From NCBI GenBank assembly GCA_947487165.1, contig CANKWX010000008.1:1-64000 (forward strand): a stretch of 64,000 bases of DNA, given 5' to 3'. Positions 16,639 through 51,368 of this stretch are shown here, piece after piece. The notes beneath the pieces were generated by a model that was not told the origin of the DNA, did not search any database, and saw only the letters and a list, made by a program, of their open reading frames with translations. The position numbers were made by a program, and so were the translations under genes. Each line of letters starts with the position of its first letter. Positions within the stretch are counted from its first letter, which is position 1. The stretch comes from Burkholderiales bacterium. Lineage in GTDB: Bacteria > Pseudomonadota > Gammaproteobacteria > Burkholderiales > Burkholderiaceae_E.

Positions 16639-17463
16639 TCATGCGCCCAAAATTCTTGCGATTCGCACGCCGAGTCCCTGCAGCCACGGCGCGACATAGC
16701 GCAGCTTCGGTCGCCGGGCCTCGGCGGCCATCACGATCTTGGCGACGATGCTGTCGGTGTTGCGCGCTTCCAGAAAATTGAAGGACTTTGTCTCGCTGGC
16801 CTTCAGCCTGTCGATCTGATCGCGGAAATACGATTCCCTGGCCATCCATTCGTATTTGCGATCGGTCATCGCCTGATTGAAGCCGGTGTGGATCGCCCCC
16901 GGCTCGATCAGTGAAATCTGGATGTTGCGACCGAGCTGATCCATCTCGGATCGCAGCGCGGCACCTGCCGCCGAGAGCGCAAATTTGCTCATCGAATAAG
17001 GCATCAGAAACGGTACCGGCAATCGGCCTGCGACCGAGCTCACAAAGAGCACCGTACCGCGCGAGCGCGCGATCATGCCGGCCAGCACCACCTGCGTCAG
17101 TTCAATCGTTGCAAAGACATTCACCTCGAAAACCTTGCGGATGCGGTCGACATCGACTTCGGCAAGCGAGCCCGAGTCACCGACGCCGGCATTGTTGATC
17201 AGCACGTCAATGTCGCGATTCCGCACCGATTCGCGATCGGTGGCCGAAGTGATGTCGAGCCTGATCACTTCGATGCCTGTGCCCCCGGGGTTCGGCTTCG
17301 CGGCGCACTGCGAGCGCAGGGCAGCCGCCTGTGCCTCATCGAAGGTGGCGGCAATCACCCGGTGGCCGCGCGCGGCGAGCGCAAAGACCGCGTCGCGTCC
17401 GATGCCGCTGCCGGCACCGGTAATGAGAATGGTTTTCTGACGATCGCTCATGGCGGGGCTCAT
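16639..17463 (-). CDS. Short-chain dehydrogenase/reductase
   Basis: NAD(P)-dependent oxidoreductase of the classical SDR family. The cofactor motif TGAGSGIG follows the start, NNAG is present, FVSSVAGRLPVPF supplies the catalytic Ser and YSMSK the Tyr and Lys. Starts at 17463 (274 residues) or 17451 (270 residues) are both ATG. The open frame extends to 17556, but that part lies inside the preceding gene. It is the third gene of a compact operon, 10 bp after the propeller gene and downstream of the tandem DsbA-fold gene. Substrate unknown. Confidence 0.88.
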   Translation of the reverse strand: MSPAMSDRQKTILITGAGSGIGRDAVFALAARGHRVIAATFDEAQAAALRSQCAAKPNPGGTGIEVIRLDITSATDRESVRNRDIDVLINNAGVGDSGSLAEVDVDRIRKVFEVNVFATIELTQVVLAGMIARSRGTVLFVSSVAGRLPVPFLMPYSMSKFALSAAGAALRSEMDQLGRNIQISLIEPGAIHTGFNQAMTDRKYEWMARESYFRDQIDRLKASETKSFNFLEARNTDSIVAKIVMAAEARRPKLRYVAPWLQGLGVRIARILGA

Positions 17464-17473
17464 TGCACAAAGC

Positions 17474-18751
17474 TCAGTGCACAAAAACTCGGGCCAGTCG
17501 GCCGAAGGTGGTCCAGTAAAAATCGCGTCCCCAGCCGGGGCTCGGAAACACGACACCTTGTGTCAGGCCGCCAGTGCGCGCCCTGCCGAGCTCCTCTCCG
17601 GTCTCGATGTCGAGGACCGCGACTTCTTCGGCATTGCGACGATAGTCATTGATGACCAGCTCGCCGGTCTGCGGATACTGCAGCATATGACTGGCGCAGG
17701 CGAAGCCCGGCTTGTCCCATTGTGGTGTCAGCGTGCCGTCCGATGGCTCATATCGCCAGGCACGCAAATAGCGGTTGGCCGAGTCGTAGCCGATGACCAG
17801 TTGGCGTTTGAGGTCGTAGAGCGGCGGATTGGTGATGCTGCCGCCGCGCTGTCCGCCGACCGTCACGATCTGATGATCTCGGGCATCGTGCATCGAGACG
17901 CGGATCAGCCTGTTCGGGGTGGGGCTCACGCCCGCGCCGATCATGCTGCGCAGATAGCGGTGGTGGCCGTTGTCCATGAACCAGGCATTGTCGCCATCGA
18001 GCACCACGTCCCAGCCATAGGTTTGAGCGCTGGTGCCGATGTAGTCGAAGCGCCAGTCGCAATCGAGTTCGAGTGTGCCTCGGCCAGCGTCGAAGTGGTA
18101 ACGCATGATCGACCGCACGCCCACCACGTACACCGTGTTGCCGATGGCCGAGAGTCTGGCGATCGAGGCCTCGGGGCAGACGATATCGGCGCAAATCGGC
18201 CGCAGGCTGTCCGGGTCGATGATCGTCAGATGGGCCGGTGTGCTGTCCGAGAGGTTCTTGGTCACCAGCAGACCGTTGTCCAGGATCACGAAGGAGTTGT
18301 AGGCCTGGTTGATCGGCAGTTCGAGCGCGGCCTGCGCCTCGCACGAGCGCGAGAGGCGATGGGCATAGCGGCCATAGACCACAAAGAGCAGGCCGTTGCG
18401 GTGAATGGCCATGCCGCCCGGCCACATCGGGCCGCCTGCGAGGCTTGGCGAGCACTCGAGGGTGGCGAGCGTGTTCGGATCGATGCGCTCGACTCGGGCG
18501 GTCGTGGGCAAGCCGATGCGCGAGCGCAGCATCGAATGCGTCAGCAGATAAACCTCACCCGGTGCGCCGAGCACGGTCATCGTGCCCATCATGATGTGTC
18601 GGCTGACCCAGCCTAGCGTGCCGCCCGAACGCAGATCGAGCCCTGCCGCACCATGGCCGATCTGCAGACGCCCTGGCCCGCCGTCCTCGCCGGGCCAGGG
18701 GCTGTCGAAGTAAGCCTGCGCACGCGCTGGTTCGATGCTTGCGATGTTCAT
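17474..18751 (-). CDS. Unrecognised protein, probable beta-propeller
   Basis: 425 residues from the ATG at 18751, 10 bp after the DsbA-fold gene stop; the frame is open further upstream but that part lies inside the neighbour. I recognise no family motif. What is visible is a succession of strand-rich segments about 40-50 residues long with Gly/Asp turns and aromatic pairs (ILDNGLLVTKNLSD, IGNTVYVVGVRSIMRYHF, VVLDGDNAWFMDNGHH, LVIGYDSANRYLRAWRYEP, VAVLDIETGEELGRA). This is the periodicity of a six- to eight-bladed propeller such as gluconolactonase/SMP-30 or PQQ-like folds. No signal peptide is visible, so it is probably cytoplasmic. Function unknown; the neighbours suggest a redox or lactone-related step. 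Confidence 0.75.
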   Translation of the reverse strand: MNIASIEPARAQAYFDSPWPGEDGGPGRLQIGHGAAGLDLRSGGTLGWVSRHIMMGTMTVLGAPGEVYLLTHSMLRSRIGLPTTARVERIDPNTLATLECSPSLAGGPMWPGGMAIHRNGLLFVVYGRYAHRLSRSCEAQAALELPINQAYNSFVILDNGLLVTKNLSDSTPAHLTIIDPDSLRPICADIVCPEASIARLSAIGNTVYVVGVRSIMRYHFDAGRGTLELDCDWRFDYIGTSAQTYGWDVVLDGDNAWFMDNGHHRYLRSMIGAGVSPTPNRLIRVSMHDARDHQIVTVGGQRGGSITNPPLYDLKRQLVIGYDSANRYLRAWRYEPSDGTLTPQWDKPGFACASHMLQYPQTGELVINDYRRNAEEVAVLDIETGEELGRARTGGLTQGVVFPSPGWGRDFYWTTFGRLARVFVH

Positions 18752-18761
18752 TCCCCGCTGC

Positions 18762-20150
18762 TCATGCCCTGCTGGGTCCGGGCGACGAGGCCTGCCCGCC
18801 GCCTGCCCGCAGCAGTGCGTCCTGTATCGCCCACAGACGGTCCTGACCCCAGACCGCGGTATCGCCCACGACAAATGAGGGCACGCCCCAGATGCCGCGC
18901 GCGAACATCTCCTGCCGGTTGCGCTCGGCCACCGCCCGCCAGCCCTCGTCCTGCAGGGCGTCCTGGGCATCTGTCCAAGACAGGCCCGCACGCTGCGCGA
19001 TGCTGCGCAGGCCACGGTCGGAGCCGGCATCGATCCCCTCGGCCCACACGCCATGCATGAAGGCGCTCACATAGGCCTCGGCGCGATCGTGCCGTTGTGC
19101 CAGTGGGATCAGCGCCAGGCCGCGTTCGGTGGGCCTGCCGACCGGATCGTTCACACGACCGAAGGGCGTGCCGCGCCAGTGCGCTTCACGCGCGGCATCC
19201 GCCGCGATATAGCCGCGCTTTTCTGCTGGCACCGGCAGACCCCGCATCACCATCGGCAGCAGATAGCGCAGATTCACCCGGGCGCCGGTATGGCGGGCGA
19301 GCGCAAACACCCTTGGTGTCACGATGGCTGAATAAGGGCTGCGAAACGAAAAGAAGAAGTCGATCTCGGGGTTTGGGCCTGCACCATGCACGGTCGCGAG
19401 GTCGTCGCCCGGCGGATACAGCAGGTCGGTAACGCGGTCATGCTGCGCGCCGAGCGACTGCAGTCGACGCTCCAGATGGTGCAGCCGATCGATGCCCCAG
19501 TACCACTCGCCGCCATAAAGGAAAGTCGCGCCGAGGTAATGACCCTGCTTGCGCCGCAGTGCCGCAGACGCGAGCAGATGCGATGCCAGCGCGTCGCTTG
19601 TCGCCAGTGGCGCGCCGGTCGAGTCGCCCTGCAGCATGTCGCCCTGCAGCATGTCGCCCTGCAGCATGTCGCCCTGCTCAGTGTCGCCTTGCCTCATGTC
19701 GCCTCGCCACAAGGCGCGCGAAAGTGTTTCGGTCCGCGTGATGCCATCACCGCGCCCGATCGCGTCGAGCAGAAGGCTGCCGGCCTGCTGTATGCGCTGC
19801 GCGCTGGGTTGTACGCCCGGGTCTGTGAACCACAGTCCATGACGGTGTGCCAGTCGCTGCGCGTCGATGCGGCTGTAGTCGACCAGCATCGCCCGCTCGG
19901 GTGCGGCTGCATCAGCCGGTGGCCCGACCAGGTGGATATCGATCTCGATCTTGTAGCGCTGCGCCAGCAGCGGCAGGCTGCAGGCACTCAGCGCGCTGTA
20001 AGGGTCGTCGATCTGATGAAAATACTGGACGCGGTGGGGCTCGCCGCGTGCTTGCCTGTTACGCTCAACGCGATTGCGCTGTCTTTCGAGACGCTCGCGT
20101 GAGAGCAGGCGTTGCGAGATCACCGGCATCAGCAGGGTTTTGATCGACAC
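18762..20150 (-). CDS. Tandem DsbA-fold protein, HCCA-isomerase-like
   Basis: 462 residues with two DsbA-like thioredoxin-fold halves. The N-terminal half (VQYFHQIDDPYSALSACSLP at 41-60) is divergent. The C-terminal half is typical of the 2-hydroxychromene-2-carboxylate isomerase/DsbA family: FFFSFRSPYSAIVTPRVF at 265-282 places Ser-Pro-Tyr where thiol oxidoreductases have CxxC, and WGVPSF gives the cis-proline loop near the C-terminus. With no CxxC in either half it is more likely a glutathione-dependent isomerase or transferase than an oxidoreductase. The linker holds five GDxxQ pentapeptide repeats (150-174) encoded by a 15-bp tandem repeat. First gene of the operon, divergent from the TetR gene. 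Confidence 0.82.
   Translation of the reverse strand: MSIKTLLMPVISQRLLSRERLERQRNRVERNRQARGEPHRVQYFHQIDDPYSALSACSLPLLAQRYKIEIDIHLVGPPADAAAPERAMLVDYSRIDAQRLAHRHGLWFTDPGVQPSAQRIQQAGSLLLDAIGRGDGITRTETLSRALWRGDMRQGDTEQGDMLQGDMLQGDMLQGDSTGAPLATSDALASHLLASAALRRKQGHYLGATFLYGGEWYWGIDRLHHLERRLQSLGAQHDRVTDLLYPPGDDLATVHGAGPNPEIDFFFSFRSPYSAIVTPRVFALARHTGARVNLRYLLPMVMRGLPVPAEKRGYIAADAAREAHWRGTPFGRVNDPVGRPTERGLALIPLAQRHDRAEAYVSAFMHGVWAEGIDAGSDRGLRSIAQRAGLSWTDAQDALQDEGWRAVAERNRQEMFARGIWGVPSFVVGDTAVWGQDRLWAIQDALLRAGGGQASSPGPSRA
19624..19698. repeat. 15-bp coding tandem repeat in the DsbA-fold gene
   Basis: Five units of 15 bp: three identical copies of TCGCCCTGCAGCATG on the plus strand, then two diverged copies. 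On the coding minus strand they encode GDMLQ three times, preceded by GDTEQ and GDMRQ. The unit length is a multiple of three, so gain or loss of copies keeps the frame. They fall in the linker between the two DsbA-like halves. Confidence 0.9.
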
Positions 20151-20203
20151 GATGAGCTCAAGCCTTCGGTGGCAAATGTCGGTTTGAATCGGGTTTGTCA
20201 GGG

Positions 20204-20235
20204 CATCGTACCATACACTTATGTATGGTACGATG
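20204..20235. promoter_or_regulatory. Perfect 14+4+14 bp palindrome, likely TetR operator
   Basis: Left arm CATCGTACCATACA, spacer CTTA, right arm TGTATGGTACGATG: a perfect inverted repeat between the divergent DsbA-fold gene (start 20150) and the TetR-type gene (start 20281). On the plus strand a TTGTCA at 20195-20200 could be a -35 with the -10 inside the palindrome. On the minus strand TTCATC, 16 bp, TATGGT could play the same roles. A dimeric TetR protein bound here would block both promoters. Confidence 0.8.
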
Positions 20236-20280
20236 AAGCTGGTGCTCTTGCCGACCCCGAACCTTCATCGTGCCTGAACC

Positions 20281-20913
20281 ATGACCCGTACCGACGCTGA
20301 CCCCCGAAAACTTCAGGCGCCGCGCCTCAATCGCGACGACTGGCTCGATGCCGCCTACGAGGTGGTCGCAGAAAGCGGATTCGACGCGGTCAGGGTGCTC
20401 TCGATCGCAGACACCCTCAAGGTTACCCGAGGCAGCTTCTACTGGCATTTCATCGATCATGCCGATCTCATCGCCGCGCTGCTGCAGCGCTGGCGGATCC
20501 GCGAAATCGAAGCCGACAAGCGTCTTCAGGCCGATGCCACCGACGATCCCGAGGCCGATCTGGTCAGGCTGCTCGATACTGCGCTCGCCTATGGTGGGTC
20601 CGACCTGAAGGCGCTGCGATTCGAGCAGGCATTGCGCTCGCTTGGCCGGCGTGATCCCAAGGCTGCCGACATGCTGGCTGAAGTCGATGCGGTGCGAATG
20701 GCGGTTCTCGAAGAAAAATTTCGCCGTCTGACTGGCGATCCCCGCACGGCGAGCGAGCTGGCCGCACTCATCTATCTGGCGGTTGCCGGCGGCTTGCAGG
20801 CGCTTGCCCGGCCTGGCAGTGATGACCGCATCGCCGCCTACCTGCGGCGTGTGATCGCCGACTACCTCATTCATCGGCAGGCGCCTGGCGCAGCCTCATC
20901 GCTGGCAACCTGA
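20281..20913 (+). CDS. TetR/AcrR-family transcriptional regulator
   Basis: 210 residues. An N-terminal three-helix DNA-binding domain with LSIADTLKVTRGSFYWHF at about 40-57 is the TetR helix-turn-helix. The all-helical C-terminal half binds an unknown ligand (a TetR_C domain with LRFEQALRSLGRRDP). Divergent from the DsbA-fold/propeller/SDR operon, with a perfect palindrome in the shared intergenic region, so it most likely represses itself and that operon. The start is the ATG that opens the frame, 46 bp after the palindrome. Confidence 0.92.
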   Translation: MTRTDADPRKLQAPRLNRDDWLDAAYEVVAESGFDAVRVLSIADTLKVTRGSFYWHFIDHADLIAALLQRWRIREIEADKRLQADATDDPEADLVRLLDTALAYGGSDLKALRFEQALRSLGRRDPKAADMLAEVDAVRMAVLEEKFRRLTGDPRTASELAALIYLAVAGGLQALARPGSDDRIAAYLRRVIADYLIHRQAPGAASSLAT

Positions 20914-20929
20914 GCGTCACCGGCCATCG

Positions 20930-21547
20930 TCATCCGAACAGACGGATCAGACCCAGGGCGGCCAGCACAGTCGCCATGCCTGCCATCAGGCGTACTCCGA
21001 ACAGGCTGATGATCGGTTTGACCGGAAAGACATGGGTGTGTTCGATGGCAGCCCACTTGTGCATGAACACGTCGCGCTGTTCGGTCTCGACGACAAAGCG
21101 CAGAAAATCGCGTCGACTGCGGTATCGAACCATCGCGATATAGGTCCAGGGCTGCGATTGCCCGTCATCAATGAAGCGACCGGCGCTCCTGGCGATCATC
21201 ATCACCACGCCCGCGCGCTTGAGCAGCGGCCAGACGATCGCCCGACCATAGCGCTTGTCGGCTGCCCTGACGTCGTCACCGTAGGGCGAGCCGGGCGGAT
21301 AGAGTGCCCTGGCTCGCCAGCGGACCAGATTGTTCATGACGAACTCCCGGCCGTCGTCATTCGACAGCACGGTGCGCAGCTGAGCCAGGCTGGCGGGATC
21401 GGCCTTGTGGGTCGACCCGCCTTCGAGCTGGCCGAGCGCCTGATCGATTTCCGCTTTCGTCAGTGGCGAGCCGCGCCCCCCGTACCAGATCAGAAAGAGC
21501 AGATAGAGCGCAGCCAGCGCAAGCCCGATCGCAAGCGATGTCGACAT
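20930..21547 (-). CDS. Hypothetical protein with terminal membrane segments
   Basis: 205 residues, no family recognised with confidence. One hydrophobic segment at the N-terminus (LAIGLALAALYLLFLIWYGG) and one at the C-terminus (LMAGMATVLAALGLIRLFG) enclose a soluble part with FVMNNLVRWRARALYPPG and YIAMVRYRSRRDFLRFVVE. That pattern resembles dimeric alpha/beta-barrel proteins such as DUF1330 (inference only). It starts 2 bp after the end of the PF10118 gene, so the two are cotranscribed. Convergent with the TetR gene 16 bp away. Confidence 0.75.
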   Translation of the reverse strand: MSTSLAIGLALAALYLLFLIWYGGRGSPLTKAEIDQALGQLEGGSTHKADPASLAQLRTVLSNDDGREFVMNNLVRWRARALYPPGSPYGDDVRAADKRYGRAIVWPLLKRAGVVMMIARSAGRFIDDGQSQPWTYIAMVRYRSRRDFLRFVVETEQRDVFMHKWAAIEHTHVFPVKPIISLFGVRLMAGMATVLAALGLIRLFG

Positions 21548-21549
21548 CG

Positions 21550-22374
21550 TCAGGTCGCGCGGCTGATTTCCATGAACTGAGCCGCATTGACCTCAAGCCA
21601 TTGGCGTGAGCGCGTGTCGTCGTGCTGGTCGGGGTGGAAGTCGGGCGCCAGATAGTCTTTCCAGGCGTCGACATTGCCGCGGATCAGCCCGTCGCGGGCA
21701 AACAGCAGCTTTGCGCCACTGCGCCAGGTGTCCAGCTTGAAGAGGCTGCCGTCGTGCCAAAGATTGCGAACCGTCTGACGCATGACGTCGGTCAGAAAGT
21801 TGACGGTGACCACCTTGAAGACTCTGGTTCGCCACAACTGGTTGCCACCCGCGGCCAGATAGATATTGAAGGCGGTGCTGCGGTGCTCGGACTCTTCTGC
21901 GCTGTGCCATTGCCACAGGGTCTTGAGTCGCGGCTCGGCGCCCTCGAGCACCTCGGGGTGACGCAATATCCAGTCGGCAAAGAGTGCGGTGAAGTGTTCG
22001 GTTGCCGCGGTCGCCGCCAGATGGATCCGCAGATCGCGATCGGCAATTTTCTTCACACGCCGCTGGGCTCGCCCCTCGATCTCGTTGGTAAAGCCCATCG
22101 TGTCGAGGTGCCGATTGAAGAGCGCATGGATGTGCCGGTGCGTAGCTTCCTGGCCGATGAAGCCCTGTACCTCGCGCTCGTAGCGCGACTGCTCGGCCGG
22201 CGACAGCGATTTCATGCCATTGCGCACCGAGTCGATGAAATATTGCTCTCCAAAGGGAAAGCTCATCGACAGGGCATTGAAGAAGGCCGAGCGAAAGGCA
22301 TCGCCGCCATTCCAGCGTGCCGGAAAGGGTTGCTTCAGATCGATCAGCAAACGCCTGACAACCAGATCGCTCAT
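21550..22374 (-). CDS. PF10118 predicted metal-dependent hydrolase (ferritin-like)
   Basis: 274 residues from the ATG at 22374. The frame is open to 22611 but the upstream part has no family similarity and covers the regulatory region. Conserved Glu/His pairs GQEATHRHIH, TEHFTALFADW and HSAEESEHRSTAF form a ferritin-like four-helix metal site typical of the family annotated as predicted metal-dependent hydrolases. These may instead be di-iron oxygenases; the activity has not been settled. Forms a two-gene operon with the small membrane protein downstream. A 12-bp palindrome lies about 80 bp upstream. Confidence 0.85.
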   Translation of the reverse strand: MSDLVVRRLLIDLKQPFPARWNGGDAFRSAFFNALSMSFPFGEQYFIDSVRNGMKSLSPAEQSRYEREVQGFIGQEATHRHIHALFNRHLDTMGFTNEIEGRAQRRVKKIADRDLRIHLAATAATEHFTALFADWILRHPEVLEGAEPRLKTLWQWHSAEESEHRSTAFNIYLAAGGNQLWRTRVFKVVTVNFLTDVMRQTVRNLWHDGSLFKLDTWRSGAKLLFARDGLIRGNVDAWKDYLAPDFHPDQHDDTRSRQWLEVNAAQFMEISRAT

Positions 22375-22454
22375 GACAGAATTCCATAGATGAGAGTGAA
22401 TCCGAGCAACATGACCCGATACCTTCAGGCTCGAGCCCTTTGCCACTATTTCCG

Positions 22455-22466
22455 TACAGTACTGTA
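22455..22466. promoter_or_regulatory. Palindrome TACAGTACTGTA in a divergent intergenic region
   Basis: A perfect 12-bp palindrome between the PF10118 gene (minus, start 22374) and the META-domain lipoprotein reading frame (plus, start about 22495). Size and position fit an operator for a dimeric helix-turn-helix repressor. It differs from the palindrome beside the TetR gene at 20281, so another regulator is probably involved. Confidence 0.5.
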
Positions 22467-22494
22467 TTGTGAACGGCGCGTCAACCGTCCCGGC

Positions 22495-48214: not shown

Positions 48215-49735
48215 ATGACAATGACCGCAACCGCCGAGCCAGGCACCCGGGCAGCTTCAAAGCCCGACCCATCGGGCGAAACCTTCGACATGCTGATCGT
48301 AGGCGCCGGAATCTCCGGTATCGGCGCCGCATGGCATCTCAAGACGCGATCGCCCGGAACCCGTTTCGTCATTCTTGAGACCCAGGATGACTACGGCGGC
48401 ACCTGGCGCACCCACCGCTATCCCGGTATCCGCTCCGACAGCGATCTCTACACCTTCGGTTATCGCTTCAAGCCCTGGACCGGCGCACCGATCGCCTCGG
48501 CCGACAAGATCCTGACCTACATGAAAGAGGTCATCGATGAAAATGATCTGAGCCGCCATATCCGTTACCGGCATCGCATCGATTCGGCCAGCTGGTCGGG
48601 GGTAGACCGGCTGTGGCGGCTCGAGGTCACACGCCTTGACACCGGCGAGTCACTGCAAATCGCCACGCGTTTCTTGTGGATGTGCCAGGGCTACTACCGC
48701 CATTCGCAGGGCTATACGCCGCAGTGGCCGGGCATGGACCGTTTCAAGGGTCAGATCGTCCATCCCCAGAACTGGCCCGACGACCTCGATCTGAGCGGCA
48801 AGCGGGTAGTGGTGATCGGCTCGGGCGCCACCGCGGCCACGATCGTGCCGGCGATCGCCGCGCAATGCGGCCACGTGACGCTGCTGCAGCGCTCGCCCAC
48901 CTACTTCATCACCGGTCGCAATGCCAATGTGCTCGCCGATACCCTGCGCGAGCTCGATATTGACGAAACCTGGATTCACGAGATCGTTCGCCGCAAGATC
49001 CTGCACGATCAGTCGGTCTTTACCCGTCGCTGCGAGACCGAGCCGGAAGTGGTTACCCGCGAACTGCTTGGCGGCGTGAAGGCCTATCTCGGTGAGGACT
49101 ACGACGTTGCCAGGCATTTCACGCCGCGTTATGCGCCCTGGAAGCAGCGCATCGCCTTCATCCCTGATGGTGATCTTTTTCGCGGCATCCGCAGCGGCAA
49201 GGCCTCGGTGGTCACCGATGAGATCGACACCTACAACGAGACCGGGCTGCTGCTGAAATCAGGCGAGCAGCTCGATGCCGATGTGATCATCACCGCCACC
49301 GGTTTCGATCTCAATGTGCTGGGCGACATTGCATTTTCGATCGACGGCAAGCCCCTCGATTTCGCCAGCACCGTGAGCTACCGTGGCCTGATGTTCACCG
49401 GTGTGCCGAATATGCTTTGGGTCTTCGGCTATTTCAGGGCGAGCTGGACGCTGCGCGTCGATATCGTTGCTGATTTCATTTGCCGTCTGCTCAAAGAGAT
49501 GGAAGCTCGGCAGGCCACGGTCGTGACCCCGGCGCTGCGGCCGCAGGATCAGGGGATGTCCCTGTCGCCCTGGGTCGATCCGGGCAATTTCAATCCGGGC
49601 TACATCATGCGTGGTCTGCACCTGATGCCCAGACAGGGCGATCACCACCCCTGGAAGCACGGTCAGGATTACATGACCGAAAAAGATGAACTGCCGGTTG
49701 CCGATCTCGGCGACGGTGCCCTGATTTTCAAGTGA
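48215..49735 (+). CDS. Flavin-containing/Baeyer-Villiger monooxygenase, EthA-like
   Basis: 506 residues. FAD site IVGAGISGIGAAWHL, then ILETQDDYGGTWRTHRYPGI. The Baeyer-Villiger-type motif FKGQIVHPQNWP (FxGxxxHxxxW) follows, and VVVIGSGATAATIVPAIA is the NADPH-binding Rossmann. Spacing and the YPGIRSDSDLYTFGY stretch are like EthA-type monooxygenases that oxidise ketones and thioamides. It likely inserts oxygen next to a carbonyl, giving an ester. Followed after 13 bp by a second monooxygenase. Confidence 0.92.
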   Translation: MTMTATAEPGTRAASKPDPSGETFDMLIVGAGISGIGAAWHLKTRSPGTRFVILETQDDYGGTWRTHRYPGIRSDSDLYTFGYRFKPWTGAPIASADKILTYMKEVIDENDLSRHIRYRHRIDSASWSGVDRLWRLEVTRLDTGESLQIATRFLWMCQGYYRHSQGYTPQWPGMDRFKGQIVHPQNWPDDLDLSGKRVVVIGSGATAATIVPAIAAQCGHVTLLQRSPTYFITGRNANVLADTLRELDIDETWIHEIVRRKILHDQSVFTRRCETEPEVVTRELLGGVKAYLGEDYDVARHFTPRYAPWKQRIAFIPDGDLFRGIRSGKASVVTDEIDTYNETGLLLKSGEQLDADVIITATGFDLNVLGDIAFSIDGKPLDFASTVSYRGLMFTGVPNMLWVFGYFRASWTLRVDIVADFICRLLKEMEARQATVVTPALRPQDQGMSLSPWVDPGNFNPGYIMRGLHLMPRQGDHHPWKHGQDYMTEKDELPVADLGDGALIFK

Positions 49736-49748
49736 CCGCGGAGTAATG

Positions 49749-51368
<1,620 letters not shown>

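Follow-up and report, generated by a model that had tools for sequence, protein, structure and literature searches.

A beta-propeller operon in a probable TetR-governed sulfatase-dehalogenase regulon, with chlorosulfolipids as candidate substrates

Introduction

What pathway is served by an operon that joins a tandem DsbA-fold protein, a beta-propeller outside recognised families and an SDR oxidoreductase next to a divergent TetR gene? These genes lie at positions 16639-20913 of a 64,000-nucleotide stretch from a Burkholderiales bacterium (GenBank assembly GCA_947487165.1, contig CANKWX010000008.1, positions 1 to 64,000), referred to below as the window. An earlier note, made from the letters alone, had suggested a dedicated inducible pathway, perhaps an isomerisation that depends on glutathione with a lactone or keto reduction as its next step, and had named aromatic or enone compounds as candidate ligands of TetR. 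The present analysis indicates that the operon is very probably part of a TetR-governed sulfatase-dehalogenase regulon. With a probability of roughly 0.6, this regulon serves to oxidise a sulfated organohalogen lipid and to strip it of sulfate and chlorine, for which the chlorosulfolipids of freshwater chrysophytes would be the best fit.

Results

Scanning 84,980 species genomes with six exact peptide patterns gave 93 stretches, of which 79 were confirmed as propeller loci, a number that is not exhaustive since such a scan reaches only loci with one of the six peptides. Over these loci the propeller is 47-92% identical in its best segment (47-78% outside the genus) and is carried, by record title, mostly by Burkholderiales metagenome bins, as well as by some Sphingomonadales, Caulobacterales, Halieaceae, Sulfuritalea and Pseudomonas; many carriers have isolate names taken from lakes and ponds. 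Partners were named from clusters of open reading frames (ORFs) and from profile scans that covered 21 distinct neighbour proteins, and were counted as tblastn matches of at least 60 bits over uneven lengths of flanking DNA, remote matches included (glutathione transferase, GST, down to 25%; the protein termed DUF 30%; the sulfatase SULb 32%; the haloalkane dehalogenase, HLD, 46%). On the tblastn map the common order is PF10118-DUF-(GST)-SULb-FGE-TetR(divergent)-DSB2-SULa-propeller-(FMO)-SDR-MBL-HLD, in which SULa is a further sulfatase, FGE the formylglycine-generating enzyme that matures sulfatases, DSB2 the tandem DsbA-fold protein and FMO a flavin monooxygenase; it is complete in few loci, and some have other orders. 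The most constant partner, SULa, is present in 67 of the 79 loci and is the nearest upstream cluster gene of the propeller in 61 of the 72 with enough flank. Matches to the remaining partners are found for TetR in 43 loci, MBL in 40, DSB2 in 39, HLD and SULb in 36 each, SDR in 34, GST in 33 (some remote), FGE in 31, DUF in 26 (some at 30-35% identity), PF10118 and FMO in 23 each, an acyl-CoA dehydrogenase in 17, a PF13557 outer-membrane protein in 15 and an acyl-CoA ligase in 14 (four at only 26% identity). When the 47 loci of at least 15 kb are considered, the counts are SULa 42, TetR 30, DSB2 29, SULb 28, HLD and MBL 26 each, GST 25, and SDR and FGE 24 each, with a sulfatase present in 25 of the 26 HLD-bearing loci. 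The HLD counts were made without the query HLD2_L093, and stop-holding stretches make up 9 of 76 SULa, 4 of 17 acyl-CoA dehydrogenase, 2 of 23 PF10118, 2 of 43 HLD, 1 of 43 TetR, 1 of 41 DSB2 and 1 of 79 propeller matches. The conservation of the propeller neighbourhood, which the earlier note had proposed to examine, is therefore borne out, with recurrent partners in most of the 79 loci rather than unrelated contexts in relatives.

Several loci extend this picture. Two HLD copies are present in five Sphingomonadales loci (L093, L094, L096, L097 and L100), and a named isolate, Limnohabitans sp. G3-2 (L057), has matches to DSB2, SULa, propeller, SDR, HLD, SULb, MBL, FGE and FMO. In some loci the profile scans identified an acyl-CoA ligase, an acyl-CoA dehydrogenase and ETF; none of the 21 scanned neighbours matched a ring-cleavage family, though one of them is the PF13557 outer-membrane protein. 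Within the order, the propeller occurs in one of 349 genomes and HLD of at least 60% identity in that same genome, HLD copies of 40-46% being found in 27 others; this rarity is in line with linkage, but n=1. As a separate observation, the remote acyl-CoA ligase match (26%) lies near the cluster in L078, L079, L080 and L102, with a sigma-70-family gene beside it in L102 and related ORFs in the other three.

The catalytic residues of the sulfatases and the dehalogenase can, like the gene families, the recurrent clustering and the shared operator-like sites, be read from the sequences. One HLD member (L033) scores 438.1 bits against the NCBIfam haloalkane dehalogenase model NF002043 (cut-off 265) and the best PDB match is a haloalkane dehalogenase (376.1 bits). 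The pentad D134, W135, W175, D261 and H291, which comprises the nucleophile Asp, the acid, the His and two halide-binding Trp, is kept in 41 of 41 rows and also in the copy of the window genome. SULa resembles arylsulfatase 1hdh (427 bits). Of 75 SULa-type rows 72 have the formylglycine-forming Cys, as do 34 of the 35 SULb-type rows, and the remainder are gapped there; the third position of the CxPxR-type motif in SULb is Pro in 18 rows, Val in 15 and Ala in one. All 34 FGE rows, among which the query appears twice, have the Cys pair, and all 41 MBL rows the HxHxDH motif; these residue counts take in window-genome paralogues of the sulfatases, FGE and MBL. A signal-peptide-like N-terminus was seen by eye in SULa of the window genome and in both SULa and SULb of L054. 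For FMO the best NCBIfam match, pentalenolactone D synthase, lies far under its cut-off at 92.5 bits.

As a control, the surroundings of 20 ordinary HLD copies from the order (40-46% identical; 20 of the 27 found in other genomes) were compared, and none has a SULa- or SULb-like gene (tblastn, E up to 1e-5), or an operator with at most two mismatches, within about 8 kb. Given that the positive loci were collected by way of the propeller, this comparison shows an association and not how frequently such HLDs occur without sulfatases.

The operator of the locus is a perfect 14+4+14 palindrome, CATCGTACCATACA-CTTA-TGTATGGTACGATG, at 20204-20235 (no strand), which lies with 100% matching arms between the start codons of TetR and DSB2, as the earlier note had described, and is the only match in the window with at most three mismatches (0.00 expected, 100 shuffles). 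Its core, CCATACA-N4-TGTATGG at 20211-20228, occurs with at most four mismatches in 45 of the 49 intergenic regions next to TetR genes, where shuffles that keep single-base composition only would give 4.0. Many of the 49 regions come from related genomes and, because the core was chosen after the window and the palindromes had been seen, the count is not an independent test; the genome-wide scans of the window genome and its genus come closer to one.

Throughout the 3.78 Mb of the window genome (G000), the core with at most two mismatches occurs at four places, against one for a reversed-pattern control: the main operator; window position 22452; C18:40462, 154 bp before the MBL start; and C21:19571. 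The first three precede the DSB2-propeller-SDR operon, the PF10118 gene and an MBL-HLD-SULb operon respectively. The site at 22452, where the promoter scan also places a promoter-like site on the right strand, has counterparts in G001, G002 and G005. C21:19571 was rejected as a regulon member given its position inside a thiolase-like ORF; its operator-like sequence recurs at G002:C68:10835 and G005:C45:88812. The parts of the cluster are spread over several contigs of this genome, which holds 10 sulfatases in 3.8 Mb, with SULa (71% identical) on C2 and the MBL-HLD-SULb operon (59, 62 and 50%) on C18. Two further sulfatases and an FGE-like gene were noticed on contig C42 (L118, 8417-14278).

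Across the 12 genus genomes there are 17 places with at most one mismatch, 16 of which lie in front of cluster operons by map comparison; one of these, in G006, falls on the opening codons of an ORF whose called start is early. With the control pattern, each genus genome has 0 to 4 places at up to two mismatches (four versus four in G002), and so the two-mismatch level alone is not specific. TetR relatives of at least 61% identity are present in nine of the 12 genomes, the window's included, and all nine have a place with at most one mismatch at cluster genes; G003, a fragmented assembly in which TetR was not found, has one such place at MBL. The propeller is present in five of the 12 and HLD of at least 61% in 11, one cut copy counted. 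In all five propeller-bearing congeners the HLD operon carries the operator with one or two mismatches, and a weak SULa site is kept 48 bp ahead of an ORF for a small membrane protein in front of SULa. Among the seven propeller-less congeners, six have DSB2-SULa-(SDR)-(MBL)-HLD in one row, while in G009, the seventh, such an HLD, a close TetR (34%) and an operator site are all absent. Predicted operator sites would thus place four transcription units, distributed over three contigs, under one TetR, and the earlier suggestion of a dedicated TetR-controlled pathway gains from the core marking both the TetR intergenic regions and other operons of the genome. Also seen in propeller-less congeners is a gene of about 280 residues, DJ-1/PfpI amidotransferase-like by eye, between an operator and SULb (L127 15482-16399, L130 6180-7013 and L126 about 262-1200).

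The operon itself is as the earlier note had drawn it. On the minus strand, the SDR (16639-17463), the propeller (17474-18751, 425 residues) and DSB2 (18762-20150, 462 residues) are separated by 10 bp each, given an SDR start at ATG 17463; an alternative start is possible at 17451. The SDR scores 140.5 bits for adh_short (Pfam cut-off 26.6), its TGxxxGxG and YxxxK motifs reading TGAGSGIG and YSMSK, and the divergent TetR-family gene, the regulator of the proposed regulon (20281-20913, plus strand), has TetR_N (PF00440) at 41.0 bits against a cut-off of 24.

The propeller has no Pfam or NCBIfam family at its cut-off, and structure prediction agrees with the fold that had been proposed for it: the AlphaFold2 model (pLDDT 87.8, pTM 0.88) has 32 strands, which fits eight four-stranded blades. 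The closest structures are 9p3g (Rv3035, Z 36.2) and YxaL 7dxn (Z 35.5), followed by tetrathionate hydrolase 7cqy (30.0) and by the designed eight-bladed Tako8 and BamB (28.9), values that reflect a common fold and not function. An alignment of 40 of the 79 loci plus the window (A2; rows L068, L073, L077, L096 and L103 dropped, L073 alone for an in-frame stop) has 85 invariant columns in 41 rows, many of them polar, which suggests an active or binding site. No signal peptide was seen by eye, and no PQQ family was found in Pfam up to E 1, the fold being shared with quinoprotein-type propellers. A distant arylsulfotransferase was considered and rejected: arylsulfotransferases are six-bladed, the model has 32 strands and the family is absent from the Pfam scan.

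In DSB2, Pfam recognises DSBA in the C-terminal half only (88.1 bits). Nevertheless, a profile alignment of one half with the other covers 184-191 columns (hhalign probability 84-89%), with E values of 7.5e-6 in local and 2.9e-7 in global mode and 0.92 for a reversed control, for which reason the internal duplication, with a diverged second half, looks real. At the CxxC place the halves read DDPY and SxRSPY, each in 36 of 36 rows; the double DsbA/HCCA-isomerase-like protein without CxxC of the earlier note is therefore upheld, and a DsbA thiol oxidoreductase was rejected. The C-terminal half of the structure model (pLDDT 85.9) matches kappa GST 3rpp (Z 17.5) and HCCA isomerase 2imd (Z 17.1), and has both the DsbA-type fold and Ser in place of CxxC, the mark of the HCCA isomerase/kappa GST class. 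From this motif and the GST matches at propeller loci, a glutathione-using step in the pathway appears likely. Alignment A3 comprises 28 of the 35 DSB2 rows and the window. In-frame 15-bp tandem repeats encoding GDMLQ-like units were observed in the gene at 19623-19727; model confidence is low over the repeat stretch (residues 153-177), and DSB2 ORF length varies among congeners.

Beyond the segment treated in the earlier note lie two further window genes (20930-22374) and a second operator, both genes being recurrent propeller neighbours in other loci too. The 205-residue DUF (20930-21547, minus strand) has no family from Pfam or NCBIfam scans. The PF10118 'predicted metal-dependent hydrolase' (21550-22374, minus strand; 247.7 bits, longer ORF scanned) has its start placed at ATG 22374 from comparison with relatives. 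The second operator (22452-22469, no strand; two mismatches) lies 77 bp before that start codon and overlaps the promoter-like site. Elsewhere in the window, two adjoining FMO-related stretches at 48278-50939 have 45% and 27% identity to the cluster FMO, the closer relative being at 48278-49729.

Discussion

The combination of partners indicates what kind of compound the regulon may handle. Sulfatases with their maturation enzyme imply sulfate esters, the complete dehalogenase pentad suggests carbon-halogen bonds, and the presence, in some loci, of an acyl-CoA ligase, an acyl-CoA dehydrogenase and ETF points to an aliphatic substrate. In the proposed pathway SULa and SULb, as exported formylglycine sulfatases matured by FGE, would remove the sulfate groups, and the freed alcohol would enter the cell, where its oxidation by the SDR may yield a ketone or aldehyde adjoining C-Cl bonds. 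HLD would take off chlorine hydrolytically, and GST and DSB2, both putatively glutathione-dependent, would act on alpha-chloroketone intermediates. The propeller would act on an intermediate inside the cell, and in many relatives FMO, acyl-CoA ligase, acyl-CoA dehydrogenase and ETF could complete the chain, with a possible Baeyer-Villiger step by FMO to cut it. Acting at the palindrome, TetR would keep every limb repressed until it takes up an intermediate as ligand.

Danicalipin A, a C22 1,14-disulfate, carries six chlorines, and from this structure an oxidised C14 alcohol would give an alpha-chloroketone, a type of compound that glutathione-dependent enzymes can dechlorinate. The substrate is tentatively placed, at somewhat below even odds, among the chlorosulfolipids that freshwater chrysophyte algae would shed, of which danicalipin A and malhamensilipin A are examples. 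Freshwater algae have been known as a source of chlorosulfolipids since the 1960s, and two freshwater chrysophytes, Ochromonas danica and Poterioochromonas malhamensis, are the species from which they were described (PMC13413282). Algal exudates support the growth of two Limnohabitans species, and strain G3-2 is listed from site Gosau 3 (PMC3591437). No account of chlorosulfolipid breakdown was found in the titles and abstract openings searched, where most subscription journals are not covered. It is conceivable, albeit with the same reserve, that this is the first recognised bacterial route for chlorosulfolipids, by which chrysophyte membrane lipids would lose sulfate and chlorine in lake bacteria through the sulfatases, HLD, DSB2 and a new propeller enzyme, all under one TetR.

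A number of observations weigh against this interpretation. HLD is present in the examined DNA of fewer than half of the propeller loci (and of 26 of the 47 long ones), it is a haloalkane dehalogenase by family match, which is no proof of a halogenated substrate, and a review holds that such enzymes likely act on natural 1-chloro-n-alkanes (PMC6299022). Twelve of the 79 loci are without a sulfatase in the DNA examined: seven pieces shorter than 15 kb (L032, L088, L091, L098, L104, L106 and L107), the congeners L029-L031, which have a sulfatase elsewhere in the genome, and the long L049 and L092. In 21 kb of Pseudomonas sp. N040 (L049), of the genes looked for, only the propeller and GST were found. 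The window-type TetR was seen in 43 of the 79 loci and was not found in the examined DNA of Limnohabitans sp. G3-2; G007 (best TetR 41%) has the cluster with no operator at it and no close TetR. Within the window genome, SULa on C2 has only a four-mismatch site, one of the four operator places lies inside the thiolase-like ORF, and the promoter scan found no promoter-like site at the main operator or the C18 operator. The presumed freshwater habitat of the carriers comes in part from record titles, the role of the propeller in the pathway is putative, and we infer repression, export, the order of steps, the chemistry of the propeller and DSB2, the substrate and the TetR ligand.

Given the greater constancy of SULa (67 of 79 loci, against 36 for HLD), it is possible that the TetR regulon serves a sulfated, non-halogenated lipid or steroid-like compound, to which the acyl-CoA enzymes and the flavin monooxygenase would be suited, and that the HLD-type enzyme is another alpha/beta hydrolase acting on an ester or epoxide. 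However, this is unlikely for three reasons: first, no HLD row has lost a residue of the pentad, its halide-binding tryptophans included. Second, the operator is present at the HLD operon in each of the propeller-bearing congeners. Third, HLD is doubled in five Sphingomonadales loci. It appears improbable that the pathway is directed at man-made pollutants, whether chlorinated or sulfated, of which chloroalkanes and alkyl sulfate surfactants are examples. A known alkyl-sulfate (SDS) module does combine a sulfatase, an alcohol dehydrogenase and a fatty-acid-CoA synthetase, but as described it comprises four genes with an AraC-type regulator and no dehalogenase (PMC10779009). Furthermore, the spread of the propeller over several orders at 47-78% identity outside the genus suggests an old natural function. 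About as slight is the chance of the aromatic or enone isomerisation followed by lactone or keto reduction that the earlier note had offered, for although the C-terminal half of DSB2 has the HCCA-isomerase/kappa-GST fold and motif, an SDR gene lies downstream and the name of PF13557 (Phenol_MetA_deg, 'MetA-pathway of phenol degradation'; 15 of 79 loci) would favour an aromatic compound, that name tells rather little on transport, the scanned neighbours include no ring-cleavage family, and the recurrent partners are sulfatases, FGE, a dehalogenase and some acyl-CoA enzymes.

If the sulfated organohalogen lipid is indeed the substrate, the heavily studied haloalkane dehalogenase family would gain a natural substrate and a new propeller family would be placed in a pathway. 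The organochlorine and sulfur turnover of lake lipids would also be opened to direct tests in a Limnohabitans isolate, the regulon being testable because strain G3-2 carries most of the gene set. To our knowledge, the natural substrates of most haloalkane dehalogenases are unknown. Haloalkane dehalogenases are widespread in organisms without a record of degrading synthetic organohalogens (PMC6299022).

Compared with known systems, each component has relatives from which it differs. HLD has the same pentad and overall sequence as the group of 6f9o, 5esr and 1edb (DpcA, DccA and DhlA, 'subfamily I'). It differs by sitting in a recurrent sulfatase cluster, whereas its 20 ordinary same-order relatives have no such sulfatase nearby. 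Likewise, SULa shares sequence and the modified Cys motif with formylglycine sulfatases such as arylsulfatase 1hdh, but its gene context is different. The C-terminal half of DSB2 has the fold and Ser-type motif of HCCA isomerase and kappa-class glutathione transferase (2imd, 3fz5, 3rpp); unlike them, DSB2 is duplicated in tandem, its other half having diverged. Rv3035, YxaL, tetrathionate hydrolase and BamB are eight-bladed and have a fold in common with the propeller (Z 28-36), yet it is only 10-14% identical to them and has its own invariant columns. The nearest known system as a whole is the slfCHSL alkyl sulfate (SDS) module of the Psychrobacter plasmid pP62BP1, likewise a dedicated inducible operon with its own regulator, which shares a sulfatase, alcohol oxidation and a fatty-acid-CoA synthetase with the present system (PMC10779009). 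That paper names haloalkane dehalogenase once; the regulator of the module is of AraC type and its gene list as given there is without haloalkane dehalogenase, propeller, tandem kappa/HCCA protein and FGE, the components that set the TetR-linked regulon apart from it (PMC10779009).

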